The notes below the pieces were generated by a model, which saw nothing but the letters and a program-made list of their open reading frames with translations, had not been told where the DNA came from and ran no database searches. From assembly GCF_016597785.1 (NCBI RefSeq), contig NZ_JAENJG010000002.1:434001-498000 (forward strand): a stretch of DNA of 64,000 bases. The letters are read 5' to 3'. A program made the translations under genes and the position numbers. Each line of letters begins with the position of its first letter. Position 1 is the first letter of the stretch. The stretch is from Leucobacter sp. L43. Lineage in GTDB: Bacteria > Actinomycetota > Actinomycetes > Actinomycetales > Microbacteriaceae. Shown piece by piece: positions 47,688-63,428 of this stretch.

Positions 47688-47727
47688 GTCATGTCCTCTC
47701 GAATGGATCGTGATGCGGGAAGTGCGT

Positions 47728-47740: not shown

Positions 47741-47763
47741 CTGGCGTCTGCTCTGCAGAGCGC

Positions 47764-48570
47764 TCAGACCGGCTGGACATCGGGATACGCGACGGACCCG
47801 ATGGGGTAGATGTGGCCGCCGGCTCGGGAGTGCTCGGCGTCGCCGGTGCCCGTGAGCCCGAGGAAGACGCCCGTCGTGCGCAACTGGTATCCGAGATCGT
47901 GCAGCCACACGCTGGCGACCGCGATCCGGAACTCGCGGAAGCAGAAGAGGTAGAGGCCGTCGGAGAACTTCCACACGGTCGAGAGATCCATGTCTCCGTG
48001 CCCGCGCTGCACCCCTTCGACGCACTGCCATGCGTACCGCTCGCTGGAGATGTAGACGTGCTCGTACAGGTGGTGCGGGCTGTAGCGGTACAGGTTGCGC
48101 TTTCCGATCAGATCGCGTGAGGGCCCGGGTGCTTCGCCCGACGGCTCGCCGCCGTCCGTGACCGCCGCCCAGAAGGTCTGGCCCACGCGCGGCTCTCCGG
48201 CGTGATCCTCCGAACCGATGGTGGAGCGCACCACGAGCGCCCGATGCGTCGATTCGGAGAAGATCACCGTGAGTGATTCCCGCTCGAGTGATTCGAGGGG
48301 GAGGTTCACGAACACGGTGTCGGAGCGCACCCGCACCGCGTCGTACGGGTCGCGGTGCTCGTCGCCGGCGGGGAGCGAACCGTCGGCCCACCACGTCACC
48401 TGCTCGGTGCCGAAGGACAGGCGAAGCGAGGATCCGTCATCGAGTGTCAGGGCGAGCGCCGTGCCCGCGAGGCTGGCATTCGGAAGCCGGAAGGCGTCGA
48501 TGCCGGCGGCGAACTCGTCGTAGCTGCGCCACTCGTTCGGATCTGCTGCGGTGATGTCGTGCGTGGTCAT
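47764..48570 (-). CDS. MoaF-like protein
   Basis: A 268-residue protein resembling MoaF-family proteins, predicted lipocalin-like beta barrels. The second half carries the conserved pattern HHLYEHVYISSERYAWQCVE, DMDLSTVWKFSDGLYLFCFR and GYQLRTTGVFLG. MoaF is named after molybdopterin genes but many homologs sit in catabolic operons; no molybdenum gene is near. AAGGAG lies about 10 nt upstream of the ATG. It lies between an AraC regulator and the Liv importer in the same orientation, so may act on the imported compound. Function not known. Confidence 0.7.
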   Translation of the reverse strand: MTTHDITAADPNEWRSYDEFAAGIDAFRLPNASLAGTALALTLDDGSSLRLSFGTEQVTWWADGSLPAGDEHRDPYDAVRVRSDTVFVNLPLESLERESLTVIFSESTHRALVVRSTIGSEDHAGEPRVGQTFWAAVTDGGEPSGEAPGPSRDLIGKRNLYRYSPHHLYEHVYISSERYAWQCVEGVQRGHGDMDLSTVWKFSDGLYLFCFREFRIAVASVWLHDLGYQLRTTGVFLGLTGTGDAEHSRAGGHIYPIGSVAYPDVQPV

Positions 48571-48791
48571 GGTGCCGTCACTCCTTCGTGCGCGGAGAGC
48601 GGCGAAGAGGCGGTGAGCAACGCCGAGGGCGGATGCCACCGGGCTTCGTCGCCCGTCAGGTGGCATTCACTGTACGCAGCGTCAGGGGCGTGCGGAGGCG
48701 GCTGCAGGCGGCTCGTCTGTCTCAGTCAACCGTCGTTCGCTGCGCGACAACAACGGTCACGAAACGGCCTCGAACCAGCCGGGAGTCCGGG

Positions 48792-49754
48792 CTAGGCGCG
48801 TCGCAGCTCGCTCGGCGAGGCGTTGAACGCCGCCTTGAACACGCGGCTGAAATGCGCGGCGTCGGTGAAGCCCCAGCGCGCGGCGATGGTCGAGACGGTC
48901 CGATCCTGCAGCACCGGATCCAGCAGATCGGCACGGCACCGCTCGAGTCGACGCTCGCGTATCCAGGTCGACACCGTGGTGTCGGCTTCGCGGAAGAGGG
49001 AATGGAGGTGTCGCGTCGAGATGTAGTGCGCGGCGGCGATGGTGCTGGGGGAGAGAGCGGTGTCGCCGAGATGCGACTCGATGTACGCCGTGATCTTCTG
49101 CAGGAGGAGCTGATGCGGATCGCGCTGCGCTGGGTCGGCGTCGAGAATGCTCGAGAACAGGGTTCCCATGAGATCGAGACTCGTGTGCGCGAGCTTGGCG
49201 CGCACGCGCCCGTCGAGGTTCGCGAGCTGCGCGGGGAACTGTGAGAGGAACGCTGTGACGACAGGCGCGAGACCGCTGTGCTCGCGTCCCAGCGACACCG
49301 CTGTGAGCTGCTCCGTGAACGGGATGGGGAGGTCGACGCGATCCTTCGGGAACATCATGATGAGGTTCCGGAACTCCTCGCCGAAGAGCAGCGAGTACGG
49401 GCGCGACGTGTCGTAGACGGAGAGGTCTCCGGGGCGCATGACGACCTCGCGCCCGTCCTGCACGAGAATGCTGCTCCCAGACAGCAGCAGGCTCACCTTG
49501 TAGTAACCGCTTCCGCCATCAGCGATGGTCTCCGGCGTGCGCTCGACGAGGTGCGGGCGTGCGACGACTTCCGTGAAGACCACGTCATCGGCGTCGGCCG
49601 ACACCATCCGTGCGGAGAAGCGCCCGGCGTACTCCGTGGACACGCGCAGTGGCACGAAGGACGACGCGACCATCTGCCGGAACGCTCCGAGGTCGTCGGC
49701 ACGGGTGCGCTGGGCGTTCGCAAGGGCTTCGCTCTGCGTCATTGCAGTGTTCAT
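48792..49754 (-). CDS. AraC-family regulator (FeaR-like)
   Basis: A 320-residue regulator with an N-terminal AraC-binding-like domain (FSARMVSADADDVVFTEV, LVQDGREVVMRPGDLSVYD) and a C-terminal double HTH (LSPSTIAAAHYISTRHLHSL, then VSTIAARWGFTDAAHFSRVF). FeaR-type proteins activate amine or aromatic catabolism. AAGGGATCC precedes the ATG. It lies directly upstream of the MoaF-like gene and the Liv operon on the same strand and is the likely regulator of both. Confidence 0.9.
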   Translation of the reverse strand: MNTAMTQSEALANAQRTRADDLGAFRQMVASSFVPLRVSTEYAGRFSARMVSADADDVVFTEVVARPHLVERTPETIADGGSGYYKVSLLLSGSSILVQDGREVVMRPGDLSVYDTSRPYSLLFGEEFRNLIMMFPKDRVDLPIPFTEQLTAVSLGREHSGLAPVVTAFLSQFPAQLANLDGRVRAKLAHTSLDLMGTLFSSILDADPAQRDPHQLLLQKITAYIESHLGDTALSPSTIAAAHYISTRHLHSLFREADTTVSTWIRERRLERCRADLLDPVLQDRTVSTIAARWGFTDAAHFSRVFKAAFNASPSELRRA

Positions 49755-49866
49755 TCCAGGATCCCTTCGGCATCTCTGACGTTCGTGCTCGGGTTGGCGC
49801 ACCCGCACCGGAGGGGTCACTGCGATGCGCACCGCTCACGGCGTGTCACTTCGAGAGGATACACCT

Positions 49867-51141
49867 TCAGGCTCGAACGCTCGCGAGCGATGCGTCCAAG
49901 GCGTCGAGGAGGATCGGGAGCTCCGCTTCACCGAACGCGAGCGGTGGGCGCACCTTCAGAACGCTCTGGTCCCGGCCGATCCGCGAGATCAGCACCTTGC
50001 GCGCCTTCATCTCCTCGACGACCCGCGCCGCCAGTTCGGGCGCCGGCGCTCCGTCGATCGCGAAGTCGAGACCGAGGAACATGCCCGTGCCCTTCGCGGC
50101 TCGCACGAAGTCGTAGCTGTCCGCCACACCGTCCAAGTGGGCGCGTGCGGTGCGACCGAGGGATCGGGCCCTCGCCATCATCCCGTGCTCCTCCATTTCG
50201 AGCAGCACGGCCTCGCCCACCGCGGCCGAGACCGGGTTGCCGGCGAAGGTGTTGAAGAACTCGTTGCGCGAGCCGAAGGCGTCGAGCACCGGCTCGCTCG
50301 TGACCACGGCCGACATGGGGTGGCCGTTGCCCATCGGCTTCCCCATCGTGACGAGATCGGGGGAGAGGGCCGCGAGCTCGTGGCCCCACATGTAGGATCC
50401 GGTGCGGCCGAATCCGCTCTGCACCTCGTCCGCGATGACGAGTCCGCCGGCGACGCGCACGCGCGATGCGATCTCGGGCAGGAGACCCTCGGGCACGCGG
50501 GGCATGCCCTCCGTCGAGAAGAGCGGATCGAAGAGGCACGCCGCGACTCCGAACCCCGCCTCCTGCAGCGATGCGATCGCTGCGTCCACTTCGCTCAGGG
50601 TCGCGGCGAGCACATCGGCCTCCGGCCGGGAATCCCGATCGAGGTCGGGAATGCGGATCGCGCGCACGTGGGCTCCGAGCGGCTCGCGAGTCTCCAGGCC
50701 CGTCGTCATCTCGGCGAGCGCGATGGTCGTGCCGTGGTAGCTGTAATCGGAGACGATGACTCCGGTTGCGCCGGTGAGCTGGCGCGAGATGCGCAGTGCG
50801 AGTTCGTTCGCCTCCGAACCCGAGTTGCCGAAGAAGACGCGGTCCAGGTCGTCGGCGAAGGTTGCGAGCAGACGCTCGGAGTAGTCGATCACGCGGTCGT
50901 TGAGGTACCGGGTGTGCACGTTGAGCGTCGCGGCTTGATCCGCGAGCGCGCGGACCACCCGCTCGTTCGCGTGGCCGACGTGCGGCACGTTGTTGTAGCC
51001 GTCGAGGTACCGGTCGCCCGAGGCCTCGGTGAACCAGACGCCCTTGGCGGCGACGAATTGGAGCGGTTCGCGGTAGAAGAGCGGGGAGTAGGGGCCGATG
51101 GTGCGATTGCGGCGGGCGAGCAGGTCTGCGGTGGAGGACAT
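49867..51141 (-). CDS. Class III aminotransferase-fold enzyme, probable amino-alcohol-phosphate phospho-lyase
   Basis: A 424-residue PLP enzyme of aminotransferase class III: phosphate-binding FFGNSGSEANELALR, SDYSYHGTTIALAEM, the Asp in LVIADEVQSGFGRTGS, and the Schiff-base Lys in LVTMGKPMGNGHP. Its features (N-terminal RNRTIGPYSPLFYREPLQFV, and DGYNNVPHVGHANERVV) match the ethanolamine-phosphate / hydroxylysine-phosphate phospho-lyase subgroup. The kinase gene 47 nt upstream supports phospho-lyase rather than transamination. Phospho-lyases release an aldehyde, ammonia and phosphate. ATG 51141 follows ACAGGAACCC. Confidence 0.87.
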   Translation of the reverse strand: MSSTADLLARRNRTIGPYSPLFYREPLQFVAAKGVWFTEASGDRYLDGYNNVPHVGHANERVVRALADQAATLNVHTRYLNDRVIDYSERLLATFADDLDRVFFGNSGSEANELALRISRQLTGATGVIVSDYSYHGTTIALAEMTTGLETREPLGAHVRAIRIPDLDRDSRPEADVLAATLSEVDAAIASLQEAGFGVAACLFDPLFSTEGMPRVPEGLLPEIASRVRVAGGLVIADEVQSGFGRTGSYMWGHELAALSPDLVTMGKPMGNGHPMSAVVTSEPVLDAFGSRNEFFNTFAGNPVSAAVGEAVLLEMEEHGMMARARSLGRTARAHLDGVADSYDFVRAAKGTGMFLGLDFAIDGAPAPELAARVVEEMKARKVLISRIGRDQSVLKVRPPLAFGEAELPILLDALDASLASVRA

Positions 51142-51188
51142 GGGTTCCTGTCTGTGTGTGAGCGGCGGAGGCGATGCGGGTGCGGCCG

Positions 51189-52190
51189 TCAATCGGCGAT
51201 GAGGTCCTCGGCGAGCCGCACCACGTGCGGCAGCACGGTGCGCGCGTGCCATTCGGCAGTCGGTTCGCCGCGACGATCCGCCGACCAGCCGAGGTAGGTG
51301 AGTCCGCGAGCGAGGAGGATCGCCGGGAACACCTCGTGGTCGGCCTCGTCGAGTGGACGCACGGCCTCGTAGCCGGCGAACAGCGCGGAACGGTAGTCGG
51401 CGGCGCGCGGGTGCGGCGTGTAGAAGTAGAGCGCGGTGGCGAGGTCGAACAGGTGCCAGCCGGCCGCGAAGTCGTCGAAGTCGATGACCACCAGACCAGT
51501 CTCCGTCCGCAGCACGTTCTCGGGGGTGAGGTCGGCGTGGATCGGGCCGAATCGATGCGGAGGGGTGCCGTAGGCGGTGATCTGCTCGCGTACGCGTTCG
51601 ATCGCGCGAGAGACGGTCGCGCGCTCGTCTCCCACCAGCTCGGTGAGCCCGAGAGGATCGCCCCAGGCCGGTTCGCTGCCGATCAGGCCCTCGAGGTCCC
51701 AGTCGTCGCGAGACACGGCCATCGCGTAGCCGGAGCGCTCGGTGGCGGCGTGGAGCTCCCCGATCAGGCGTCCCAGTGCGGTGAAATCGGAGGGCTCGAG
51801 ATCTGCGGTGCCGGCGACCGCGGTGCGCTCGTCGCCGAACATGCCCCGGTTCGGGATCAGGCGCTGCACGTCGACCTGATGCGGCCCCACTGCGCTCTCG
51901 GCGCCGACCACGACGAAGCCGCTCCCGTCTGGCGCGGCGATGAACTCGGGCACCGCGACGCCTTCAGCGTGCAATGCGCGGACGAAGTCGAGTTCGCACC
52001 CGAGCTCCGCGTCGGAGTGGTAGCCCTGCCGGTGCACGCGCACCACGTACGGCCGATGATCGGAGTCGAATCGGTAGACGAAGTTCTCACGGTTCTTCAA
52101 GAGCTCCAGGTGCGTGGCGGCGTCGAAACCCCAGACGGTGATGGCTTCGCGGGCGAGGCCCTCGGCGATCTCGAGCGTCACGGTGGTCAT
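51189..52190 (-). CDS. APH-fold kinase (amino-alcohol or hydroxylysine-type)
   Basis: A 333-residue kinase of the aminoglycoside phosphotransferase / choline kinase fold: YVVRVHRQGYHSDAELGCEL (Lys/Arg lobe), the catalytic loop FGPIHADLTPENVL and metal Asp in VVIDFDDFAAGWHLFDLA. Hydroxylysine kinase and homoserine kinase type II are its closest style. It would phosphorylate the hydroxyl of an imported amino alcohol, for the phospho-lyase encoded immediately downstream. ATG 52190 follows GAGAGGA. A clear promoter and palindrome lie upstream. Confidence 0.87.
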   Translation of the reverse strand: MTTVTLEIAEGLAREAITVWGFDAATHLELLKNRENFVYRFDSDHRPYVVRVHRQGYHSDAELGCELDFVRALHAEGVAVPEFIAAPDGSGFVVVGAESAVGPHQVDVQRLIPNRGMFGDERTAVAGTADLEPSDFTALGRLIGELHAATERSGYAMAVSRDDWDLEGLIGSEPAWGDPLGLTELVGDERATVSRAIERVREQITAYGTPPHRFGPIHADLTPENVLRTETGLVVIDFDDFAAGWHLFDLATALYFYTPHPRAADYRSALFAGYEAVRPLDEADHEVFPAILLARGLTYLGWSADRRGEPTAEWHARTVLPHVVRLAEDLIAD

Positions 52191-52240
52191 CGGGGTCCTC
52201 TCGTCCGGGCGGGCCGGAATCGACGGACCACCGCAATCTG

Positions 52241-52276
52241 TACTCCGAGTATAGAAACTGAACGCTGCGTCCACAA
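52241..52276 (-). promoter_or_regulatory. Promoter and operator of the kinase/phospho-lyase pair
   Basis: On the minus strand TTGTGG (52276-52271) and TATACT (52253-52248) are 17 nt apart, a good sigma-70-type promoter. The palindrome TACTC-C-GAGTA (52241-52251) overlaps its -10. The divergent TetR gene at 52308 is the probable repressor. Confidence 0.65.
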
Positions 52277-52294
52277 GACTCGCCGGCGCCTTTG

Positions 52295-52300
52295 TAGACT
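52295..52300 (+). promoter_or_regulatory. -10 element of divergent tetR (probable leaderless start)
   Basis: TAGACT at 52295-52300 ends 7 nt before the GTG at 52308, so the transcript would begin at about the start codon. No ribosome-binding site is seen. Confidence 0.4.
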
Positions 52301-52307
52301 GGTCTCC

Positions 52308-52943
52308 GTGAGCACAGCACCATCCGCCTCGAACGCCCCTGAGCAGTCGCCTGATCGCCGCAGCCTTCGCGAGCGGAGACAGGAGCGCACCCGCCACGAG
52401 CTCGTCGATGCGGTACTCGAGATCATCGCCGAGGGCGGCCTCCCCGACGCTACGATCGAGCGGGTGTCAGAGGTGTCGGGCATCTCCAGGGGAACCGTGT
52501 ACGCGCATTATCCCGGCGGGAGGGACGCGCTGCTCCGCGATGCCTACGCCAGGCTGGGGCGCGAGCTCGTGGAGCGGACGCGCGCCGCCGCCGCCGCTGC
52601 GAACGACTGGCGGGAGAGCCTCTTGGCGCACGCGAGCGCCATGTTCGATCTCGCCGCCGATGCGCGGCTCGGGCACTTCTACAACGTGTCCGGACCGACG
52701 CTCGTCGTCGATGGGGCCGAGCGCGGCATCGGCTCGGGTGCGAGCGCGGCGATGATCGGCGACACCCTCCTCGCGGCGCAGCGCGGCGGAGCCGTCAGCG
52801 CGGAGGTCGACGCGCGGGCGACGGCGGTACTGCTCGTCGGCGCCCTCCGGGAATCGGCGATCGGCATCGCGTCGACACCGTCGGGGTCGACGACGTACTT
52901 CGCCGCGTTCACGCGCCTCATCGACGGCCTGGCCGCCGGCTGA
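52308..52943 (+). CDS. TetR-family regulator
   Basis: A 211-residue TetR protein. After a 30-residue basic tail the HTH reads ATIERVSEVSGISRGTVYAH, followed by YPGGRDALLRDAYARL. The GTG at 52308 is chosen because no ATG in frame precedes the conserved domain and a -10 lies 7 nt upstream. It is divergent from the kinase/phospho-lyase operon and likely represses it. It converges on a second, unrelated TetR gene, 14 nt apart. Confidence 0.87.
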   Translation: MSTAPSASNAPEQSPDRRSLRERRQERTRHELVDAVLEIIAEGGLPDATIERVSEVSGISRGTVYAHYPGGRDALLRDAYARLGRELVERTRAAAAAANDWRESLLAHASAMFDLAADARLGHFYNVSGPTLVVDGAERGIGSGASAAMIGDTLLAAQRGGAVSAEVDARATAVLLVGALRESAIGIASTPSGSTTYFAAFTRLIDGLAAG

Positions 52944-52957
52944 CCCTCGCCCCTCGC

Positions 52958-53521
52958 TCACCCCCGCAGTGAGCTGAGCAGTGCGTCGACCGCTTTGCGG
53001 GAGCGCGCTGTGCGCTTGGGCTCTCGGTCGAAATCGCCGATGAAGACATTGCCGAGTGCGGTGGAGATCACCCCCTGTGCGGCGACCTCGTGCTGCGCGG
53101 GGGTGGAACCGGGGTACGCGGCGGCGATGAAGGCGAGCAGTCGCTCCCGGGCGGACCCGTAGGCCTCGGCGAGCACCGCTGCGATGTCCTCCGATGATCG
53201 GGCGAGCTCGACGAAGGCGAGCACGATCGCGTTGTCGGAGCTCGAGCTCGCGAACTCCTCGCCGAAGAGGTAGTCGAGGGCGGGCTCGAGGGAGTCGACC
53301 CCTGGTGGGATGACGGCCGGCGCGACGTAGAAGGCGCGTGCGGCGTCGAGCAGCAGGCGATCCCGATTGCCGACGAAATGGCGTACGTGCCCGCGGGACA
53401 TGCCGGCGGCGTCGGCGATGCGATCGAGCGTGGTGCCGCTGATTCCGTGGTGCGCCATCGTCGTGAGGGTCGCTTCGATGATCTGCTCGCGGCGGGCGTC
53501 GGCGACTGAGGGGCGTGCCAT
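52958..53521 (-). CDS. TetR-family regulator (BetI-like C-domain)
   Basis: A 187-residue TetR protein: HTH TTLDRIADAAGMSRGHVRHF and VGNRDRLLLDAARAFY, then a helical ligand domain with YLFGEEFASSSSDNAIVLAF. It is divergent from the CocE-led operon at 53713. A TAGTCA-GACT-TGACTA palindrome overlapping the operon's -35 marks it as the likely repressor of that whole pathway. Confidence 0.88.
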   Translation of the reverse strand: MARPSVADARREQIIEATLTTMAHHGISGTTLDRIADAAGMSRGHVRHFVGNRDRLLLDAARAFYVAPAVIPPGVDSLEPALDYLFGEEFASSSSDNAIVLAFVELARSSEDIAAVLAEAYGSARERLLAFIAAAYPGSTPAQHEVAAQGVISTALGNVFIGDFDREPKRTARSRKAVDALLSSLRG

Positions 53522-53598: not shown

Positions 53599-53637
53599 TA
53601 GTCAGACTTGACTATTTACTGGGCTCACTCGTACATT
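53599..53637 (+). promoter_or_regulatory. Promoter and operator of the CocE/Dpp operon
   Basis: TAGTCA-GACT-TGACTA (53599-53614) is a perfect 16-bp palindrome. It includes the -35 TTGACT (53608-53613); TACATT (53632-53637), 18 nt further, is a fitting -10. The start codon is 75 nt downstream with AAAGGAG before it. The divergent TetR is the likely binder. Confidence 0.65.
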
Positions 53638-53712: not shown

Positions 53713-55386
53713 ATGGCCGACTACTACCGCCTGGGCGCGGCGCCCGTGAGCGAACTCGCTCGAGAGCAGCGCGTGCGCACCCGCGACGGCGTGCACCTCG
53801 CCACAGACGTGTATCTGCCGTCCGCTGCCGACGGCACGAGAGACGACTCGCCGGGCGACACGATCCTCATCCGCCTGCCATACGACAAGAGCGGCGAGTA
53901 CACCTTCATCCCGCTCGTCGCGGAGTACCTGCTGCAGCACGGCTACCGCGTCGTCGCCCAAGACGTTCGCGGCAAGTTCCGCTCCGAAGGGGTGGCCCAG
54001 CTCTTCGTCAACGAGGTGCGCGACGGCGAGGACACACTCGACTGGATCATCGCGCAGCCGTGGTCGAACGGTCGCGTCGCCATGTGGGGCGACAGCTATT
54101 ACGGGTACACGCAGTGGGCCGCGGCCGCGAGCGGGCACCCCGCTCTGAAGGCGATCGCCCCGCGCGTCACGGGGACCGGCCTGGGCGAACCGGTGCACCG
54201 CGACCCCGGCGCCCGCGTGCGAGCCGTCGAGATGGGCATCACGAATCTGTACCCCCTCACGCACTTCCACGGCAACGACACCTTCCTCTGGGAGCCCGAC
54301 TGGTCGCGTCGCGATTTCGAGGCGCAGGCGGAGGCCTTCCAGCAGTGGGCGGGCACCCGGTCGCGCTCCTACGACCAATGGGTGCCGCACCCGGTGACCC
54401 TGCCTCGATTCCCGAACGGCAGCGCGTTCGCGGGGCGCTCGGTGCCAGTGCTGCACACGATCGGGTGGTGGGACAACTGCGCTCCGCTCTCTTGGGAGGA
54501 CGTCGCAGAGATGCAGCAGCACCCGGCGTGGGAAGCGCACCACTACCTCCGCATCGAGGCGATCGATCATGAGAGCTACCAGCTCGTCGAGGCCGAGGGC
54601 GACCGCGTGGCCGATCGCACCGAGCAGCAGATCCGAGCCATCCTGCCGCGCACGCTCGATCCCGCGTTGGAGTTCTTCGAGGTGTTCGTGCGGGGCTCCG
54701 GCACCGTCGCCGACATCCCGCGAGTCGTCTGGCAGCTGGCGGGAACGGATGAGGAGCGGATCGATCCCGTCTGGCCTCCTGCAGCATCGCGAACCGTCAC
54801 ACGCTACGCGACCGCCGAGGGCGGGCTCTCGCCCGAGCGCCCCGCCGCGAGCCGCGAGCGCACGTGGGTGCACGATCCGCAGGACCTCGTGCCCTCGACC
54901 GCTCCCGACGCCTTCTCATATCTGCTGCATCTGCCGGATGAGGCACCGCTCGGCGAGCGCGGAGACGTGATCGTCTTCACCGGCCCACAGCAGACGGAGG
55001 ACATCGATCTCGCCGGGCAGGTGCGCACCCGCGTACGCGTGCGTTCGACGGGGCCGGTCATGGACTGCTTCGTGCGCCTGCTCGATGTCGCTCCAGACGG
55101 CACCGCGGTGCGCTTCGCGCGCGGTCAGCAGCAGCTGCTCGATGCGACCGAGGCCGAGACGCTCGACATCGATCTCGGTCAGATCGGCTATCGATTGCGG
55201 GCGGGCCACCGGCTTCGGGTGCACGTATCGAGCAGCGACTACCCCGAGTTCCTCCCGCAGCCGGGCACCGGCCGCGATCCGTGGACGGACGGTCTCGAGA
55301 CCGAGCCGAACACGCAGACACTGATCATCGGGGGAGCCGACGCACTCGCGCTCGACCTCCCCGTACTGCAAGGAGCATTCGCATGA
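53713..55386 (+). CDS. CocE/NonD-family hydrolase (X-Pro dipeptidyl-peptidase S15 fold)
   Basis: A 557-residue hydrolase with the alpha/beta-hydrolase core of CocE and a C-terminal jelly-roll (about 340-557). The catalytic triad is visible: Ser128 in MWGDSYYGYTQW, Asp254 in IGWWDNCAP and His286 in IDHESYQL, numbers close to those of rhodococcal cocaine esterase. RVVAQDVRGKFRSEG is also typical. Members cut esters, amides or acylated beta-lactams. No signal peptide, so it works on an imported substrate. AAAGGAG precedes the ATG. First gene of the long operon; overlaps the DUF3237 gene (ATGA). Confidence 0.92.
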   Translation: MADYYRLGAAPVSELAREQRVRTRDGVHLATDVYLPSAADGTRDDSPGDTILIRLPYDKSGEYTFIPLVAEYLLQHGYRVVAQDVRGKFRSEGVAQLFVNEVRDGEDTLDWIIAQPWSNGRVAMWGDSYYGYTQWAAAASGHPALKAIAPRVTGTGLGEPVHRDPGARVRAVEMGITNLYPLTHFHGNDTFLWEPDWSRRDFEAQAEAFQQWAGTRSRSYDQWVPHPVTLPRFPNGSAFAGRSVPVLHTIGWWDNCAPLSWEDVAEMQQHPAWEAHHYLRIEAIDHESYQLVEAEGDRVADRTEQQIRAILPRTLDPALEFFEVFVRGSGTVADIPRVVWQLAGTDEERIDPVWPPAASRTVTRYATAEGGLSPERPAASRERTWVHDPQDLVPSTAPDAFSYLLHLPDEAPLGERGDVIVFTGPQQTEDIDLAGQVRTRVRVRSTGPVMDCFVRLLDVAPDGTAVRFARGQQQLLDATEAETLDIDLGQIGYRLRAGHRLRVHVSSSDYPEFLPQPGTGRDPWTDGLETEPNTQTLIIGGADALALDLPVLQGAFA

Positions 55387-55898
55387 GCACCTCACCTCCC
55401 GCTTCACGCATCACACCGGCGGAAGAGCTGGCGGCGCTGCCGGCTCCCCGGCTCGAATTCGTCTTCGAGATCCGGGCGACGATCGGACCCGATCTTCACA
55501 TCGGGCGCGGCGCCGACGAGCAGCTGAGCTTCACACCGGTGACCGGAGGCAGCGTGCACGGGCCAGAGTTCACCGGAGAGGTGCTGCCGGGCGGCGGGGA
55601 CTGGGCCGTGGGGCGATCCGCCACCGCCCAGCTCGAGGCGCGCTACCTGATCCGCGCCGACGACGGCTCGGTCATCGACGTGCTGAACCGCGGGTACTTC
55701 AGAGCGACTCCCGACCTGATCGCGCGCATGGAGGCCGGGGAAGACCTGCCGGAGACGACGGCCGGGCTCTACTTCCGCACCGCCCCGGTGTTTCAGACGG
55801 ACGCTCCCGCACACCGCTGGCTCGCGGAACACCAGTTCATCGGGCTCGCTCGCGACGACGCCGGGCAGGTCTGTATCCGCGTGTTCGTCGTTCGCTAG
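55383..55898 (+). CDS. DUF3237 protein 1
   Basis: A 171-residue protein of the DUF3237 family: LEFVFEIRATIG, GGSVHGPEFTGEVLPGGGDW, a long beta-hairpin region, VLNRGYFRA, YFRTAPVFQT and HQFIGLAR. The fold is a predicted beta barrel; no biochemical role is established that I can name. A paralog with the same blocks is encoded at 61214 in the same operon. ATGA overlap with the hydrolase implies coupled production, so it probably acts at a neighbouring step. Confidence 0.85.
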   Translation: MSTSPPASRITPAEELAALPAPRLEFVFEIRATIGPDLHIGRGADEQLSFTPVTGGSVHGPEFTGEVLPGGGDWAVGRSATAQLEARYLIRADDGSVIDVLNRGYFRATPDLIARMEAGEDLPETTAGLYFRTAPVFQTDAPAHRWLAEHQFIGLARDDAGQVCIRVFVVR

Positions 55899-55923
55899 AC
55901 CGCACCGCTCTCCTCAGCACACC

Positions 55924-55954
55924 CGCGGCCGGATCACCGACGATCAGGGCCGCG
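55924..55954 (+). other. Intercistronic hairpin before the Dpp binding-protein gene
   Basis: CGCGGCC (55924-55930) and GGCCGCG (55948-55954) pair over 7 bp with a 17-nt loop, 18 nt before the binding-protein ATG. It may stabilise the downstream message or reduce read-through. Confidence 0.35.
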
Positions 55955-55972
55955 CCATCGAAAGGACCCACC

Positions 55973-57616
55973 ATGTTTCGTTCCCGTGTGATCTCAGGCG
56001 CCGCGATCGGCGCCGTGGCGCTGCTCGCGCTGACCGCGTGCGCTCCGCGCGACGGCTCGTCCGGCGACACCCGCGCCAGCGTCGCGACAGCGGATCTCGT
56101 CGCGTCCACCCCGGCGGCCACGTCGCCGGTCGACGAAGTGACCTGGTCGATCGTCGAGGGCGAGCCGGCCACCCTGGATCCGGCCTCCTCAGCGAATCTC
56201 ATCATTCCGAACCTGTGCGACAACCTGCTCGCACTGCAGCCGGACTTCTCGGTCGAGCCCGGAGTCGCGACGCGAGCCGAGTGGACCGATCCGACCACCT
56301 TCGTCATCGAACTGCGCGACGATGTGACGTTCTGGGACGGCACGCCGCTCACCGCGGCAGACGTCGTCTACAGCCTCGAGCGCAATCGCTCGCCCGAGTC
56401 GCAGTGGTTCGCGGCCTTCGCGCTCGTCAGCGGCATCGAGGCGACGGGGGATCGCGAGGTCACGGTCACCTTCAACGCGCCCGACTCCACATTCCGCGAC
56501 GCGCTCGCCGGTGGCGGAGGAGCAGTGATGAGCGCCGCGTTCGGCGCTGAAGCCGGAGCCGATCTCGGCACGTCCGGCGGCGGACTGATGTGCACCGGCC
56601 CCTACGAGCTCGCAGACGGGGGGTGGACGCCCGGCGGCGAGATCGTCACGACGGCCAACCCCGACTACTGGAACGGTGCGCCGCTCGTCTCGACGCTCAC
56701 CTACGTGTTCGTCTCCGACGCATCGACGCTCGCCACCGCGCTCACGCAGGGCGAGATCGACGGCGCCCTGAACGTGTCGCCGAGCTCCCGTGCCGCCTTC
56801 GAGGGCGACGGGGCTGGCAGTCTGATCGTCGGGCCGTCGACGGCGTCCTACAGCTTCGGGCCCGCAACGTCGGAGGGGCCCGCGGCCAATCCAGCGATCC
56901 GACGCGCGCTGAGCCTGTCGATCGACCGGGAGCAGTACATCGACACCGTGCTGAACGGGTTCGGCGAACCGCAGCGCACGATCGTGCCGCCGTTCACGTT
57001 CCACGAGCTCGCGACCGCAGACGTGTATCAGGCCGGGTACGACGCGCTCCCCGCTCCGGATGTCGACCTCGACGCGGCGAAGAAGCTCGTCGACGAGAGC
57101 GGCGAAGACCTGAGTGCGCCGCTGGTGCTGGCCGTGCCGGCAGGCGCGACGGAGTTCAAGAACACGGCGCAGATCGTGCAGAGCGCCGCGAAGCAGATCG
57201 GCGTCGACATCGAGATCAACGAGATGCAGGCCTCCGACTTCGGGGCGATGTTCTACGACCCGGCCGCTCGTGAGGGAATCGACTTCGTCGCGACCCAGGG
57301 CTACCTCGAGACCCCCGGAGTGCTCGGCTACCCGTCGCTGTTCATGCTGCCGGAGGAACTCGGCGGCGTGTTCAACTGGAGCGGCTACGCCAACGAAGAG
57401 GTCACCGCGCACATGCAGGCGGCGCGCACGGCGGCTGACGAGCAGACCGCGGCCGAGGAGTTCGTCGCGGCGCAGGAGATCTTCGCGCCCGACATGCTCC
57501 AGATCACCCTCTCGGGCGCCTACCAGTTGAGCTACGTGAACGACGATCTCACCGGCATCACCACTTCGGTCGCGGTGTACAGCAGCCCCTGGGCGCTGCA
57601 CCTCGGCGGGCAGTAG
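55973..57616 (+). CDS. ABC importer binding lipoprotein, peptide/nickel family 5
   Basis: A 547-residue lipoprotein: signal peptide ending LLALTAC with lipid Cys23, then a DppA/OppA-type binding domain (VTWSIVEGEPATLDPASSAN, FVIELRDDVTFWDGTPLTAA, DYWNGAPLV, AIRRALSLSIDREQYIDTVL). A stretch rich in Ala, Ser and Thr links the anchor. Family members bind peptides but also glycosides, opines and other amides. CGAAAGGACCCACC precedes the ATG. It opens the transporter part of the operon. Confidence 0.92.
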   Translation: MFRSRVISGAAIGAVALLALTACAPRDGSSGDTRASVATADLVASTPAATSPVDEVTWSIVEGEPATLDPASSANLIIPNLCDNLLALQPDFSVEPGVATRAEWTDPTTFVIELRDDVTFWDGTPLTAADVVYSLERNRSPESQWFAAFALVSGIEATGDREVTVTFNAPDSTFRDALAGGGGAVMSAAFGAEAGADLGTSGGGLMCTGPYELADGGWTPGGEIVTTANPDYWNGAPLVSTLTYVFVSDASTLATALTQGEIDGALNVSPSSRAAFEGDGAGSLIVGPSTASYSFGPATSEGPAANPAIRRALSLSIDREQYIDTVLNGFGEPQRTIVPPFTFHELATADVYQAGYDALPAPDVDLDAAKKLVDESGEDLSAPLVLAVPAGATEFKNTAQIVQSAAKQIGVDIEINEMQASDFGAMFYDPAAREGIDFVATQGYLETPGVLGYPSLFMLPEELGGVFNWSGYANEEVTAHMQAARTAADEQTAAEEFVAAQEIFAPDMLQITLSGAYQLSYVNDDLTGITTSVAVYSSPWALHLGGQ

Positions 57617-57643
57617 TCGGCGGAGCTGCGCGGAAGGACCGAC

Positions 57644-58603
57644 GTGAACTCTCTCCTCATACGCACCCTCGTTGGCCGGCTCGGCGGATTGCTGCTGACG
57701 CTCTTCCTGGCGAGCGTCGTGATCTACGCCGCGCTGCTCCTGACGCCAGGCGACCCCATCGCCGCGCTCGCCGGCGGCGCGAAGCCCACGCCGGAGCTCA
57801 TCGTGCAGATCCGCGCCGAGTACCACCTCGACGATCCGATCTGGTCGCGCTACCTGCAATGGCTCGGAGGGGTCTTCTCGGGCGACTTCGGGCGATCCTT
57901 CGTCTACAAGACCGACGTGATGAACCTGGTGGCTCCTCGGTTCGGAGTGACGCTGCAACTCGTGCTGCTCACCGTCGTCATCATTCTCATCGCGGGCGTT
58001 GGCTCGGGCATTCTCGCCGCGACCAGGGGCCCGCGGATCGACCGGGCGGTCGGGCTGCTCACCGCACTGGGCATGGCGCTTCCGACGTTCGTGGTCGCGA
58101 TCCTGCTCATCTGGATCTTCGCGAAGACGCTGGGCTGGTTCCCGGTGTACGGCGAAGGATCGGGGGGCCTCGATCGTCTCTGGCACCTGACCCTGCCCGC
58201 CTGCTCCCTCGCGGTGCTGTTCATCGCGTACATCAGCCGAGTCACGCGCAGCTCGCTGGTGGCCCAGATCCACTCGGAGCACGTCGAGACCGCGCGCGTG
58301 CGGGGCATCCCACGCGGCCGCATCTTCCGCGTCCACGTGTTCCGCAACGCGGCACCGCAGATCCTCGCGATCTCGGGCACGACCGTCGCCGGTCTGTTCG
58401 CGGCCTCGGCGATCGCGGAGCAGGCCTTCGGGCTCGGGGGCGTCGGCTCCCTGCTCACCGAGGCCGCTGCTCGCAAAGATCTTCCCGTCGTGCAGCTGGT
58501 CTCATTGCTGCTCGTGACGATCTTCGTCGTGCTCAACGCCGTCGCCGACATCGTGAGCGCACTCATCGACCCCGACAGCATCAATGCCGGGAGGGCAGCA
58601 TGA
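57644..58603 (+). CDS. ABC importer permease, DppB type
   Basis: A 319-residue permease with about six membrane segments: RLGGLLLTLFLASVVIYAAL at the start, TPGDPIAALAGG, the EAA loop ARVRGIPRGRIFRVHVFRNA, and SAIAEQAFGLGGVGSLL. GTG 57644 follows GGAAGG. The stop overlaps the next gene (ATGA). It forms the channel with the DppC-type protein. Confidence 0.92.
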   Translation: MNSLLIRTLVGRLGGLLLTLFLASVVIYAALLLTPGDPIAALAGGAKPTPELIVQIRAEYHLDDPIWSRYLQWLGGVFSGDFGRSFVYKTDVMNLVAPRFGVTLQLVLLTVVIILIAGVGSGILAATRGPRIDRAVGLLTALGMALPTFVVAILLIWIFAKTLGWFPVYGEGSGGLDRLWHLTLPACSLAVLFIAYISRVTRSSLVAQIHSEHVETARVRGIPRGRIFRVHVFRNAAPQILAISGTTVAGLFAASAIAEQAFGLGGVGSLLTEAAARKDLPVVQLVSLLLVTIFVVLNAVADIVSALIDPDSINAGRAA

Positions 58604-59463
58604 GCGTCGCACAACTCGCGGGGGGCAGATCCCCGCAAGCCATCACCCGGGTCGCGCGCAAGGACTGGCTCTTCAGGAGCGCGCTCGTCGTCTTCGGCGT
58701 GGTCGCGCTCGCAGCGCTGGCCGGTCCGTGGATCGCACCGTACGATCCCGCCGAACTCTACACCGGCGACGTCAACGGCATCGGTTCGCTCGCCCACCCG
58801 TTCGGCACCGACGACGTGGGTCGTGACATCCTCTCTCGGGTGCTGGCGGGAGCCCGCACGAGCGTCATCGCGCCCATCGCGGTGGTCGCGCTCTCGACCG
58901 TGCTCGGCTCGGCGCTCGCCATCATCGCCGCGTGGTTCGGAGGAGCGGTGCGGGGCGTCATCGCACGCATCGTCGACGTGATCTTCGCGATCCCCGGCCT
59001 GGTGCTCGCCGTGCTCGCCGTGGCGATGTTCGGCAAAGGAGTCCTGGCGCCCGTCATCGCGCTGTCCATCGCGTACATTCCCGTGGTGGCTCGGCTGACC
59101 CAGACCGCGGCGTCCCGAGAACTCGGCAAGCCCTACATCGCCGCCTTGCGAGTACAGGGCGTCTCCGCCGCGGCCATCTGCTTCCGGCACCTCGTTCCCG
59201 CGCTGATCCCGGTGATCGCCGCGCAGGTGGCGGTCGGTTTCGGCTACGCGATGCTCGACCTCGCGGCGATCTCATTCCTCGGGCTCGGCGAGCAGCCTCC
59301 GGCCGCCGATTGGGGCTCCATGATCGCCGGCGGGCAAGCCGGCATCCTCGCGGGAGCCCCGGAGCAGGCGCTCTACCCGGCGGTCTTCGTCGTCGTCACC
59401 GTACTCTCCGTCAGCGTCATCGGCGCACGAATCACCACCTGGGCAGAGGAGAAGGAACGATGA
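58600..59463 (+). CDS. ABC importer permease, DppC type
   Basis: A 287-residue permease: short basic N-terminus, first membrane helix SALVVFGVVALAALAGPWIA, the DppC signature HPFGTDDVGRDILSRVLAGA, EAA region AALRVQGVSAAAICFRHLVP, then SFLGLGEQPPAADWGSM. ATGA overlap at both ends. Partner of the DppB-type protein. Confidence 0.93.
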   Translation: MSVAQLAGGRSPQAITRVARKDWLFRSALVVFGVVALAALAGPWIAPYDPAELYTGDVNGIGSLAHPFGTDDVGRDILSRVLAGARTSVIAPIAVVALSTVLGSALAIIAAWFGGAVRGVIARIVDVIFAIPGLVLAVLAVAMFGKGVLAPVIALSIAYIPVVARLTQTAASRELGKPYIAALRVQGVSAAAICFRHLVPALIPVIAAQVAVGFGYAMLDLAAISFLGLGEQPPAADWGSMIAGGQAGILAGAPEQALYPAVFVVVTVLSVSVIGARITTWAEEKER

Positions 59464-61217
59464 CTGCTCCCGTACTCGAACTCGACGCGCTCTCCATCGC
59501 GACCGCCGACCGCACGCTCGTGCACGACTGCACGCTGACCATCAGCGCAGGCGAGGCCGTCGGACTCGTCGGCGAATCCGGATCGGGGAAGACGCTCTCG
59601 GTGCGGGCCGTCGCAGGCCTGCTTCCCGGGCATTTCACCACTGGCGGAACGATCCGCCTCCTGGGCCACGACATCTCTGCGACGCCGCCGGCCGTGCTCC
59701 GAGACCTGCGGGCGAGGCGCGTCGGCATGATCTTCCAGACGCCGCGCGCCCACCTCAACCCGCTGCGCACCATCGGCGACTTCCTCACCGAAGCCCAGAT
59801 CACCGTGGACGGCGTGCCCCCCGAAGCGGCGACACGCCGCGCAAGGGAGCTGCTCGACGAAGTCGGCATCACCGACGCCGGACGGCGGCTCAAGCAGTAC
59901 CCCGCAGAGCTGTCGGGCGGGCTGCTGCAACGCGTCATGATCGCGGCGACGCTCGCGATGGATCCGGAGATCCTGCTCGCCGACGAGATCACGACGGCCC
60001 TCGACGTCACCACGCAGGAGGAAGTCATGGCCCTGATCGGCGACCTGCGCCGCGAACGGCAGCTGTCACTCCTGTTCATCACGCACGATCTCGCCCTCGC
60101 GGGAGCCGTGTGCGATCGAGTCGCGGTGATGCAGCGGGGCCGAACGGTCGAGACGCTCGATGCCGCGACCATGCGTCGCGACGCGCGAGAGGACTACACC
60201 CGCGTGCTCATGTCGGCCTCGCTCGGCGACACGCCGTCGCCTCCGTCCGTGAACGAGACCACCGATCCCGACGGGCTGCGGGCGGACGAGTCGGCGGTGC
60301 GCGAGGAACGCGCGGCTCCGATCCTGTCGGTGACGGGACTGCGGAAGACGTTTCGCGTGCGCAGTGCGACGGGGGGAGCTCGAGAGGAATTCGTCGCCGT
60401 CGACGATGTCGCCTTCGAACTCGCCCCGGGAGGCTGCCTCGGAATCGTCGGCGAATCAGGGTCGGGCAAATCGACGACCGCGCGCATCATCTGCGGCCTG
60501 GAGCATGCTGACGCCGGCGCGGTAACGGTCGGCGGAGCCGACTGGAGTCGGCCGGCCCGCGGCGGCGCTGAACGTCGATCTCGAGCGAAGACGGTGCAGA
60601 TGGTCTTCCAGGATCCCTACCAATCGCTCGATCGCAGGCAGACCGTTCGCCAGTGCCTCGCCGAGGCGATCCGCGTGCACCGGAAGCGCGCGCCGCAATC
60701 GGAGATCGCTGCGCGCATCGGCGAGCTGGTCGACCAGGCGAGGCTCGAACCCGCGCTCCTCGACGTCAGGCCCCGGTCCCTCTCCGGAGGGCAGCGGCAA
60801 CGCGTCGCCATCGCACGCGCGCTCGCCGCAGACCCCGAGATTCTCGTGCTCGATGAAGCGGTATCCGCACTCGACGTCACGACGCAGGTCGAGATACTGA
60901 CGCTGCTCGACACGATCCGTCGAGAGACCGGCGTCGCGCTGCTCATGATCACGCACGATCTCACCGTGATCCGCAGGCTCTGCGACAGTGTCGTGGTGAT
61001 GCGCTCGGGGCGCGTCGAGGAAGCGGGGCCGACCGGTGAGCTTCTGGACGCGCCGCGCGCCGAGTACACTCGGCTGCTGCTCGACTCCATCCCTCGCGAA
61101 GGATGGACGCCGCGGCGTCGTAGGCTCGGACGCACGTCAGCACTCCCGACCATCACCGGACCCATCGCCGCACCGGCATCGACCGGCGCGCGCTTCGAAT
61201 CGAAAGGCCGTTCATGA
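59460..61217 (+). CDS. Fused ABC ATPase, DppD-DppF type
   Basis: A 585-residue chain with two complete ATPase domains. Domain 1 (about 1-255): Walker A GLVGESGSGKT ending at residue 45, signature ELSGGLLQRVMIAATLA, Walker B ILLADEITTALD, His in LFITHDLALAGAV. Domain 2 (about 290-560): Walker A GIVGESGSGKSTTARI, signature SLSGGQRQRVAIARALA, Walker B ILVLDEAVSALD, MITHDLTVIRRL. Both look active. The oligopeptide tail (Cys4 iron-sulfur type) of DppD is not seen. Overlaps both neighbours (ATGA). Confidence 0.93.
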   Translation: MTAPVLELDALSIATADRTLVHDCTLTISAGEAVGLVGESGSGKTLSVRAVAGLLPGHFTTGGTIRLLGHDISATPPAVLRDLRARRVGMIFQTPRAHLNPLRTIGDFLTEAQITVDGVPPEAATRRARELLDEVGITDAGRRLKQYPAELSGGLLQRVMIAATLAMDPEILLADEITTALDVTTQEEVMALIGDLRRERQLSLLFITHDLALAGAVCDRVAVMQRGRTVETLDAATMRRDAREDYTRVLMSASLGDTPSPPSVNETTDPDGLRADESAVREERAAPILSVTGLRKTFRVRSATGGAREEFVAVDDVAFELAPGGCLGIVGESGSGKSTTARIICGLEHADAGAVTVGGADWSRPARGGAERRSRAKTVQMVFQDPYQSLDRRQTVRQCLAEAIRVHRKRAPQSEIAARIGELVDQARLEPALLDVRPRSLSGGQRQRVAIARALAADPEILVLDEAVSALDVTTQVEILTLLDTIRRETGVALLMITHDLTVIRRLCDSVVVMRSGRVEEAGPTGELLDAPRAEYTRLLLDSIPREGWTPRRRRLGRTSALPTITGPIAAPASTGARFESKGRS

Positions 61218-61696
61218 CCTCCGCACTCCTCAGCCCCGACTTCGAGTACTGCTTCGAATTGCGCGTCGCCGTCGACGACGCCGTTCCGATCGGCGGCTCC
61301 GCCCCAGGGGAGGGCCTGCACTTCGCGCCGATCTCGGGCGGCAGCTTCGCCGGGCCCCGGCTGCGCGGCGCGATCCTTCCGGGCGGCGGCGACTGGTGGA
61401 CCGGGCACGGGCTCACGGTGCGCCTCGATGCCCGGTACATCATCGAAGCTGAGCTCGACGGCGGCGCTACCGCGGCCGTCGACGTCGTGAACCGCGGCAT
61501 CTGGCGCACGGACGAGGCCGGTTTGGCGCGACTCGAATCGGGCGAGGACCTCGACGAGCGCGACCTCTACTACCGCACCGCGTTCGTGTTCCACACCGAG
61601 CACCCCGAACTCGAATGGCTGACGTCATCGCAGTTCATCGGATACGCGCGGCCAGAACCCGGGCACGTGGTGATCCGCGTGTTCCGACTCATCTGA
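61214..61696 (+). CDS. DUF3237 protein 2
   Basis: A 160-residue DUF3237 protein: FEYCFELRVAVD, ISGGSFAGPRLRGAILPGGG, then DWWTGHGLTVRLDARYIIEA, VVNRGIWRTDE, LYYRTAFVFHTEHPELEW and SQFIGYARPEPG. It shares all blocks with the protein at 55383 but overall identity is moderate, so the two are old paralogs with possibly different roles, or parts of one complex. ATGA-coupled to the ATPase. Function unknown. Confidence 0.85.
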   Translation: MTSALLSPDFEYCFELRVAVDDAVPIGGSAPGEGLHFAPISGGSFAGPRLRGAILPGGGDWWTGHGLTVRLDARYIIEAELDGGATAAVDVVNRGIWRTDEAGLARLESGEDLDERDLYYRTAFVFHTEHPELEWLTSSQFIGYARPEPGHVVIRVFRLI

Positions 61697-61754
61697 GCCG
61701 CCATGAACCCCCGCAGGCCGCACCCCGCGGCGTGCCGATCAGAGACGAGATGAT

Positions 61755-63428
61755 ATGACCGACTTCGCCGACCTCTGCCTGGTATCGGGCCGCATCTTCG
61801 ATGGCCGAGTGCGAACCGATCGCACCGCACTCGCGGTGCGGGGCGACCGCATCGTCGCCGTCGGCGACGATGCCAGCGTTCTCGCCCTGCGCGGGCCAGG
61901 CACCCGCATCGTGGATGCGCGAGGCGGCCTGATCACTCCGGGGTTCGTCGATGCGCACGTGCACGCCGCATTCGCAGGTGTCGAGCGGCTGAGCTGCGAC
62001 TTGTCGAGCGCGCGGAATGCGGACGAGACCTTCGCGCTCATACGCGCGGCCGTCGAGGGGGCCGACGCAGCCGGAGCCGATCCCGATTCCTGGATCACCG
62101 GGGGCGGCTGGAGCCACGAGATCTTCCCGCACCCGACGCGGCACCTCCTCGACGAGATCGTCGCGGACCGTCCGGTCGCGCTCTCAGATGCCGGCCATCA
62201 CACGCTCTGGGCGAACTCACGAGCGCTGGCACTCGCCGGGGTCACGCGCAACACCCCGCAACCCGCAAACGGGCGCATCGCGGTCGACGGCGATGGCGAG
62301 CCGACGGGGTACCTGAACGAGACGGCCGCCGAACTCGTCGGCCGCGTGATCCCCCCGGCCACGGACGACGAAATCGCCGCCGGGCTCCTCGACGCGCAGC
62401 AGTACCTGTGGTCCCTCGGCATCACTGGCTGGCACGAGGCCATCCTCGGGGAGTACAACGGCAAGGCCGATTGCACCGCAGCCTACCGGCGCGTGATTCA
62501 CGACGGAACCCTGCCCAGCCGTGTCTCCGGCGCCCTCTGGATCGCGCCCGGACTCGAGGAGGCGGATGTGCCCGCCCTCGTCGAGCGCTTCGTGCGCCTG
62601 CGCGCCGAGAACGCTGCGGCCGGATTCGCCACGTCGACCGCCAAAGCGATGATCGACGGGGTGCCCCACGGGGGCACCGCGGCACTGCTCGAACCGTACT
62701 GCTCCCACGGCGATGGCACGGGCGACGCCGGTGCGGGCGAGCTGCACTTCAGCGAAGCCGCGGTGCATGCGTTCGTGGAGCAGCTCGATGCCGCGGGGTT
62801 CGCCCTGCATCTCCACATCATGGGGGACCGAGGCATCCGGGTCGCCCTCGACGCGGTGGAAGCGGCGCGCGCCGCGAACGGGAGCGGGCCGAGGCATCAC
62901 GTCGCGCACCTGTCGATGATCCACCCCGACGACGCGAGCCGATTCGGCCCGCTCGGGCTGACCGCGAACATGCAAGCGCTCTGGGCCGCACCCGACCCGT
63001 ACGTGGTGCCGATGATCGGCGAGGAGCGCATGCGCCGCGGGTACCCGTTCCGCTCCCTCGCCGACGGGGGAGCGGATCTGGCGATGGGTTCCGACTGGCC
63101 GGTATCGCCCCCGGACCCCTGGCTCGCAATGCACGTCGCGGTCAACCGGTCGCTCCCGGCCCCACCCGATGCCCATGCTGCGACTGGCGGGAGCCCGGAC
63201 GTGCTCGACGCGGCTCAGGCCCTGACCCTTGCGGAGAGCCTCGCGGCGTACACGAGCGGTTCCGCGTCCCTGGTGCTCGACGCTCCCGGACGCATCCGCG
63301 TGGGCGAGCGCGCCGACATCGCCGTGGCGACGTGCGATCCGTTCACCGGGCCGATGGAGGCCGTGATCGCGACCCGCACCGCCCTCACGGTGGTAGCCGG
63401 CGAGGTCGTCTTCGCGCTCGCGCCGTAG
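61755..63428 (+). CDS. Amidohydrolase (YtcJ-like, amidohydrolase 3 family)
   Basis: A 557-residue metal-dependent amidohydrolase: LITPGFVDAHVHAAFAG (HxH), the Lys region FATSTAKAMIDGVPHG, LHLHIMGDRGIRVALDAVE, HVAHLSMIHPDDAS, and Asp in LAMGSDWPVSPPDPW. RVGERADIAVATCDPF ends the composite domain. It follows the second DUF3237 gene by 58 nt and is probably the last enzyme of the operon, releasing an acid or amine from the imported compound. It is only distantly like the enzyme at 40245. Confidence 0.9.
   Translation: MTDFADLCLVSGRIFDGRVRTDRTALAVRGDRIVAVGDDASVLALRGPGTRIVDARGGLITPGFVDAHVHAAFAGVERLSCDLSSARNADETFALIRAAVEGADAAGADPDSWITGGGWSHEIFPHPTRHLLDEIVADRPVALSDAGHHTLWANSRALALAGVTRNTPQPANGRIAVDGDGEPTGYLNETAAELVGRVIPPATDDEIAAGLLDAQQYLWSLGITGWHEAILGEYNGKADCTAAYRRVIHDGTLPSRVSGALWIAPGLEEADVPALVERFVRLRAENAAAGFATSTAKAMIDGVPHGGTAALLEPYCSHGDGTGDAGAGELHFSEAAVHAFVEQLDAAGFALHLHIMGDRGIRVALDAVEAARAANGSGPRHHVAHLSMIHPDDASRFGPLGLTANMQALWAAPDPYVVPMIGEERMRRGYPFRSLADGGADLAMGSDWPVSPPDPWLAMHVAVNRSLPAPPDAHAATGGSPDVLDAAQALTLAESLAAYTSGSASLVLDAPGRIRVGERADIAVATCDPFTGPMEAVIATRTALTVVAGEVVFALAP

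Follow-up and report, generated by a model that had tools for sequence, protein, structure and literature searches.

A 64,000-nucleotide stretch of the Leucobacter sp. L43 genome (contig NZ_JAENJG010000002.1, positions 434,001 to 498,000; hereafter the window, in whose coordinates positions are given unless a locus is named) was found to carry an operon in which a CocE-type hydrolase, two DUF3237 proteins (DUF3237-A and DUF3237-B), a Dpp-type ATP-binding cassette (ABC) importer and an Amidohydro_3 hydrolase are encoded together. The genome is 3.15 Mb in size and the closest named relative is Leucobacter musarum, with a DUF3237-A that is 79% identical. The cluster is a conserved actinobacterial operon reaching beyond its genus, and its arrangement, given this conservation and the recurrent operator described below, goes beyond chance. 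The proposed function, to which a probability of about 0.5 is given, is the import and hydrolysis of a phenolic conjugate of the hydroxycinnamoyl type, with the DUF3237 proteins performing cofactor-free chemistry on the product. Support for this proposal comes from the conservation of the core genes, the linkage to cou-type genes in relatives, a gene run in one relative (locus L042), the co-occurrence of DUF3237 with CouO-like genes and the precedent of PinX, PhcF and PhcG; its weakest step is the phenolic class of the substrate, which we infer.

The + strand at 53713-63428 holds eight genes, namely cocE, the gene for DUF3237-A, those for an SBP_bac_5 binding protein, two permeases and a fused ATPase, and the genes for DUF3237-B and the amidohydrolase (Table 1). 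A description made earlier from the sequence (the original prediction) had counted seven. Its anatomy was otherwise accurate: all genes that it named lie on a single strand where it had placed them, four junctions read from the sequence are ATGA overlaps (cocE/DUF3237-A at 55383, permease/permease at 58600, permease/ATPase at 59460 and ATPase/DUF3237-B at 61214), and the two DUF3237 proteins are paralogues, with a measured identity of 47%. The start codons are predicted positions, and the reading frame of DUF3237-A is open further upstream.

Named genomes were scanned with a five-row alignment of DUF3237-A and two peptide patterns, which gave 222 stretches and 129 relatives; the best 80 were kept, and the set is biased to DUF3237-A likeness for that reason. 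Of these 80 loci, 62 had CocE within a radius of 10 kb and 62 had permease B, with 60 having the two together; 62 had an amidase or Amidohydro_3 gene, and 33 carried two or more DUF3237 genes, of which a few belong to another DUF3237 clade. Where CocE, the permease (at a stricter cut) and the binding protein occurred together, an amidase or amidohydrolase accompanied them in 57 of 59 loci. Sixteen loci lacked both CocE and the permease, five of which were shortened by a contig end and 11 were full length. The gene order of the window was retained in 16 loci, three of them with a second TetR gene inserted, from Leucobacter, Agromyces, Microbacterium, Leifsonia and Arthrobacter, so that the lack of conserved order that would have counted against the original prediction was not observed. 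In fifteen further loci a signature amidase between the ATPase and the second DUF3237 replaces the Amidohydro_3 gene behind the second DUF3237, and four of these fifteen have a more distant Amidohydro_3 (39-41% identical) behind the first DUF3237. Rearranged versions were found in Streptomyces, Actinoplanes, Nonomuraea and Planomonospora. A literature search on DUF3237/UPF0311, CocE-hydroxycinnamate clusters, hydroxycinnamic amide amidases, chlorogenate, PhnH and phdA/phdR, judged mostly from titles and abstract openings, disclosed no paper on this gene set.

The cou genes direct the hydroxycinnamate pathway of Rhodococcus jostii RHA1, and phd is the counterpart in Corynebacterium glutamicum. 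A cou-like set was defined as a short-chain dehydrogenase/reductase (SDR), a CouO-like Amidohydro_2 protein, MaoC and an AMP-ligase resembling feruloyl-coenzyme A (CoA) synthetase. At least two of these genes lay within 10 kb in 18 of the 80 loci and all four in 15; CocE and the permease were present in 16 of the 18, the other two being L109, which is shortened, and L116. Against the feruloyl-CoA synthetase 8wev, the ligase of Leifsonia L068 scored 500 bits (502 residues covered) and that of Streptomyces L116 650 bits. The divergent MarR of L068 had its best matches in 3fm5 and 5cyv (90 bits), both of which are CouR according to the available text of the cou report (PMC4737184), followed by 6c28, also named CouR (44 bits). 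Matches to the CouR box were exact at L077:7151, at the SDR start, and with one mismatch at L068:7048, between SDR and MarR. The neighbouring operon in L068 appears to comprise CouR, a CouR box, CoA ligase, hydratase, dehydrogenase and a CouO-type amidohydrolase, as expected for cou, judged by gene family (families assigned on the Streptomyces counterparts) and with CouR the sole cou sequence available for direct comparison; CouO itself is described as a member of the amidohydrolase superfamily (PMC4737184). In Leifsonia and Microcella the cou-like genes are found upstream of the operon, in Microbacterium and Demequina downstream of it, each time on the opposite strand; Actinoplanes and Streptomyces have them on the same strand as the operon. 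Because position and strand differ among genera, the linkage probably has more than one origin. In genome G228 (locus L042), the SDR, CouO-like, MaoC and ligase genes, cocE and a DUF3237 gene of another clade follow each other on one strand, with an ATGA junction between the last two. What separates the window from cou is that no cou genes stand beside its operon, and the available part of the published cou account names no CocE, Dpp or DUF3237 (PMC4737184).

Co-occurrence was measured in a sample of 299 Microbacteriaceae genomes, counting DUF3237 of any clade and handling kinship at genus level at most. DUF3237 was found in 19 of 36 genomes with a CouO-like gene (at least 55% identity, a cut chosen after the list had been inspected) vs 14 of 263 without (p 6e-12). 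Taking all 42 genomes with any match gave 23/42 against 10/257, counting by genus gave 13/21 against 8/64 (p 2e-5), and after removal of the five operon-bearing genomes (n=294) the figures were 18/35 vs 10/259 (p 1e-12). Of two control families, PaaA had an odds ratio of 3.0 with DUF3237 (p 0.007) and KduI one of 0.64 (p 0.35).

DUF3237-A and DUF3237-B scored 129 and 109 bits against PF11578 (curated cut-off 24), and their AlphaFold models had a mean predicted local distance difference test value of 92.6 and 92.8. Foldseek searches with both models retrieved the DUF3237 structures 3c5o, 3g7g, 4pux and 6jjs, among which 6jjs/6jjt is PhnH of Penicillium herquei; weaker matches of DUF3237-B (E >0.01), with a dirigent protein and the cyclase PloI4 among them, are a hint only. 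Both proteins are, as modelled, beta-barrel members of PF11578/UPF0311. The original prediction had treated DUF3237 as a family of unknown function, a label that is outdated because PinX and, through their identity to it, PhcF and PhcG have been published as enzymes of this family. What stood of its picture was an importer and hydrolase operon, conserved in relatives and including two DUF3237 proteins; the sequence of cleavage that it proposed, by CocE and then by the amidohydrolase, gained no support from the analysis. As far as the available text of these reports goes, PinX contains DUF3237 and is 42% identical to PhcG and 38% to PhcF, and deletion of pinX raised the accumulation of lariciresinoate, from which a decarboxylation was predicted (PMC12607616). 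PhcF and PhcG are described as a stereoselective (enantiospecific) pair that decarboxylates a phenylcoumaran acid and in doing so probably forms a quinone methide (PMC12997858, PMC11323797). The likeness of the operon to these sphingomonad systems lies in the domain held by PinX and in two paralogues acting side by side as in PhcF/PhcG. The gene neighbours differ, and the kinship to PhcF and PhcG is known through their identities to PinX.

In a tree of 135 DUF3237 rows, in which 46 of 132 inner branches stayed open, the operon proteins fell within one clade of 114 rows (support 100/100) that also includes operon-free rows. The DUF3237-B group (32 rows, 99/95, inside a 36-row clade) and the weakly supported DUF3237-A group (41 rows, 88/60) are both mostly from Micrococcales. 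Rows with an internal stop were left out of the tree. From other comparisons L118, L016 and L070 were dropped for a stop codon in range and, by association, L003, L025, L076, L101, L102, L104, L112, L122, L127 and L135 and, in one comparison, L075 and L080; an alignment with an out-of-frame row (L031) was kept out of the folding. Plasmid-borne DUF3237 genes had mixed contexts, part of them aromatic (feruloyl-CoA synthase, gentisate genes) and part not. A third DUF3237 gene of the L43 genome stands in a unit with a flavin adenine dinucleotide (FAD) monooxygenase and MarR (L038:6854-9075, on contig C1 of assembly G000 at ~1.545 Mb); the unit recurs in relatives, with a CocE-like gene added in L040 and L047. 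At L043:1-9130 and L035:7625-17583, a DUF3237 of this third type is near an FAD monooxygenase, Amidohydro_3 and a more distant Dpp-type importer. On a plasmid of Sagittula stellata (L136:2333-9444) an ABC importer, amidase, DUF3237 and agmatinase stand in a row, a proteobacterial set perhaps for amine conjugates.

The palindrome TAGTCA-N4-TGACTA between tetR and cocE overlaps -35-like hexamers of each strand, in agreement with the palindrome-bearing promoter noted originally; two promoter-like sites were found in the region vs 0.6 expected from shuffles (standard deviation 0.8). With at most one mismatch it was present in all 35 tetR-cocE gaps measured in relatives (gap <400 bases, tetR >38% and cocE >50% identical). 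The refined form TAGTCN4TTGACTA had one exact site in each of these 35 loci and none in the remaining 46 of 81 scanned, and with at most one mismatch gave 45 matches vs 1 in mononucleotide shuffles (one shuffle per locus). The 35 loci belong to Microbacteriaceae, Arthrobacter and Demequina; among the 81 scanned, the site was not found in loci with a less similar TetR, e.g. Actinoplanes. The single exact site of the L43 genome is that upstream of cocE. At one mismatch or fewer the genome count was 3, two of which are the same site on both strands, vs 6 for a reversed-pattern control, that is, no excess. A wider TetR regulon was considered and rejected, with one exact site and one other at one mismatch. 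On the simplest reading this is a candidate local site dedicated to the TetR of this operon, and repression of the operon by that TetR is probable.

Table 1 Features of the operon in the window and the evidence on which each assignment rests.
Feature	Position	Strand	Evidence
TetR-family regulator, divergent, probable operon repressor	52958..53521	-	Pfam TetR_N 3.6e-8; tetR-cocE pair retained in relatives
Candidate TetR operator TAGTCAGACTTGACTA over divergent promoters	53599..53614	.	Palindrome, -35-like hexamers, recurrence in relatives
CocE/NonD (S15) serine hydrolase, triad S128/D254/H286	53713..55386	+	TIGR00976, Pfam S15 and PepX_C, motifs
DUF3237-A, beta-barrel protein, joined to cocE by an ATGA overlap	55383..55898	+	PF11578 1.6e-37, AlphaFold, Foldseek
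Solute-binding protein (SBP_bac_5), probable lipoprotein	55973..57616	+	PF00496 231 bits; lipobox-like LTAC
Dpp/Opp permease B	57644..58603	+	BPD_transp_1 122.7 bits
Dpp/Opp permease C, ATGA overlap at each end	58600..59463	+	BPD_transp_1 92.6 bits; sequence
Fused ATPase, two nucleotide-binding domains	59460..61217	+	Two ABC_tran stretches; Walker A and signature motifs, each twice
DUF3237-B, paralogue of A, ATGA overlap with ATPase	61214..61696	+	PF11578 1.7e-31, AlphaFold, Foldseek
Amidohydro_3 metal-dependent hydrolase	61755..63428	+	PF07969 286 bits; HxH at residue 68

The importer is complete, with a binding protein, two permeases and two ATPase domains, as in the Dpp, Opp and Nik systems, from which it differs in the fusion of its ATPases. 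The N-terminus of the binding protein carries the lipobox-like motif LTAC. Neither the binding protein nor the permeases reached a substrate-specific NCBIfam cut-off; among the matches listed (25 of 189), the fused ATPase reached only the NikD and NikE models, with both domains summed. Against the DppA equivalog model the binding protein scored 44 bits (cut-off 1005), a score that leaves the ligand class undecided.

CocE scored 269 bits against TIGR00976 and contains both the S15 and PepX_C domains. Its motifs GDSYYG (with Ser128), GWWDN (251-255) and DHESY (with His286) agree with the triad Ser128/Asp254/His286 given in the original prediction, so that the catalytic triad and the PepX_C domain expected for the family are both present. 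With the Rhodococcus cocaine esterase CocE (1ju3) it shares the S15 family, the triad order and the PepX_C domain, the two being only distantly related (143 bits in two stretches). The relatives of CocE also include alpha-amino acid ester hydrolases. The amidohydrolase has the domain score and metal motif of its family (Table 1), and its closest PDB entry, 3icj, is an uncharacterised protein. A second Amidohydro_3 copy in the window at 40245-41939 is 33% identical to it.

In the mechanism proposed, a TetR-controlled catabolic operon would take up an aromatic, probably hydroxycinnamoyl-type, conjugate through the binding protein and the Dpp-type importer, and CocE and Amidohydro_3 (the signature amidase in many relatives) would cleave the ester or amide bonds of the conjugate once it is in the cell. 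The freed phenolic part would then be the substrate of DUF3237-A and DUF3237-B in a cofactor-free step of quinone-methide type, which may be a decarboxylation, ring opening or isomerisation, and the pair may split this work by stereochemistry or by hydrolase; the direction and order of these reactions are presumed. The freed acid would enter the CoA-dependent side-chain shortening of cou where cou is present and another route elsewhere. The L43 genome encodes PaaA, and just past the window an FAD hydroxylase carrying a phenol-hydroxylase dimerisation domain would be one possible sink. Among plant phenolics, hydroxycinnamoyl esters and amides are abundant, and bacterial esterases that free such acids are known, e.g. 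for chlorogenate. If the proposal is true, actinobacteria associated with soil and plants import the conjugate whole and cleave it intracellularly, which would be an entry route of a different kind, and DUF3237, a mostly uncharacterised family, gains a directly testable substrate class. A bolder version is speculative and somewhat unlikely: actinobacteria would widely share a system for taking up the hydroxycinnamoyl esters and amides of plants, with CocE and DUF3237-A dedicated to one linkage and the amidase or amidohydrolase and DUF3237-B to the other, and the barrels would carry out a novel reaction, free of cofactors, on the phenylpropanoid released.

Several results weigh against the hydroxycinnamoyl proposal. 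DUF3237 broadly occurs without this transporter, because it was found in 33 of the 299 Microbacteriaceae genomes and the operon binding protein in only five. The second circumstance named as adverse to the original prediction, DUF3237 genes mostly without transporter and hydrolases, gave a mixed outcome, since as to the transporter it holds for DUF3237 in the broad sense and not for the closest relatives of DUF3237-A, in which CocE and permease accompany it in 60 of 80 loci. A survey of DUF3237 genes outside the operon (20 regions covering 25 of 49 places) disclosed a CocE-like gene adjoining or near in 4 of 15 examined. Fewer than two cou genes lay within 10 kb in 62 of the 80 loci. The L43 genome gave 0 matches to a CouO-like query that matches 42 of the 299 family genomes, and its best-scoring ligase match was 36% identical (43% over a short stretch). 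In the five operon-bearing family genomes, a CouO-like gene that reached the 55% identity cut occurred in one (G041), matches of 38-39% in two and none in two. As the L43 genome is without a CouO-like match and most operon genomes without a strong one, the operon is independent of cou. The MarR of Streptomyces L116 had its best match in 5hsm (49.7 bits; 6c28, 39.7 bits), which leaves its identity as CouR unclear, and the CouR-box scan was noisy, with 16 matches spread over 12 of the 80 loci when one mismatch was allowed, mostly outside cou promoters, vs 3 in shuffles, none exact. Control of the cocE operon by CouR was rejected, as no CouR-box match fell within the tetR-cocE gaps. Since the PaaA control was also associated (p 0.007), the co-occurrence may partly reflect general aromatic catabolism. 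Last, the closest PDB relatives of the binding protein are named as peptide-, murein-peptide- and nickel-type, among others.

A rival explanation is that the operon scavenges a conjugate without an aromatic part, for instance a small peptide or an amino acid in N-acyl or esterified form, cou being no more than a frequent neighbour in catabolic islands. The peptide/nickel class of the binding protein and permeases, the amino acid ester hydrolases among the relatives of CocE, the CouO-like gene not found in the L43 genome and the 62 loci without two adjacent cou genes favour this explanation, which is nevertheless doubtful, as DUF3237 co-occurs with CouO-like genes above two control families, the characterised DUF3237 relatives work on phenolic compounds in the reports available, and in L042 CocE and DUF3237 lie within a cou-like gene run. 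The enantiospecific PhcF/PhcG pair and its kinship to PinX, together with the retention of both paralogues in many loci, suggest instead a dimer pathway in which the DUF3237 pair would be stereo-complementary decarboxylases opening a phenylcoumaran or lignan acid after ester or amide cleavage; a GMC oxidoreductase, of the family to which PhcC and PhcD belong according to a title in the reference list of PMC12997858, is encoded at 29990-31576. This pathway was downgraded to improbable because the lignostilbene dioxygenase family PF03055 (RPE65) had 0 matches in the L43 genome (it was matched in 2 of 14 control genomes); in addition, the GMC gene is more than 20 kb from the operon and the loci of Streptomyces, Actinomadura and Actinoplanes have a single DUF3237 of the operon clade within the stretch examined. 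A third explanation, in which the DUF3237 proteins lack catalytic activity and serve the hydrolases or the transporter as binding or chaperone partners, with each of their genes coupled to its neighbour, would account for their close starts (25 bases or fewer) after CocE in 25 of 38 pairs, after the amidase in 12 of 14 and after the ATPase in 20 of 24, counts that use the closest start codon possible and so favour short gaps. The effect of pinX deletion and the description of PhcF and PhcG as decarboxylases make it very improbable, and some DUF3237 genes have no annotated CocE or amidase nearby in gene tables that are incomplete.

On the other side of tetR, the window at 46506-52943 encodes a Peripla_BP_6 binding protein, MoaF, AraC, a class III aminotransferase, an APH kinase and TetR, a block kept in three other Leucobacter loci (L053, L054 and L062), and its kinase and aminotransferase pair is reminiscent of hydroxylysine or ethanolamine-phosphate lyase systems. 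Downstream of the operon and past the window end (L039:11476-17690) are genes for a thiamine pyrophosphate enzyme, an IclR regulator, an aromatic FAD hydroxylase and an amino-acid permease.

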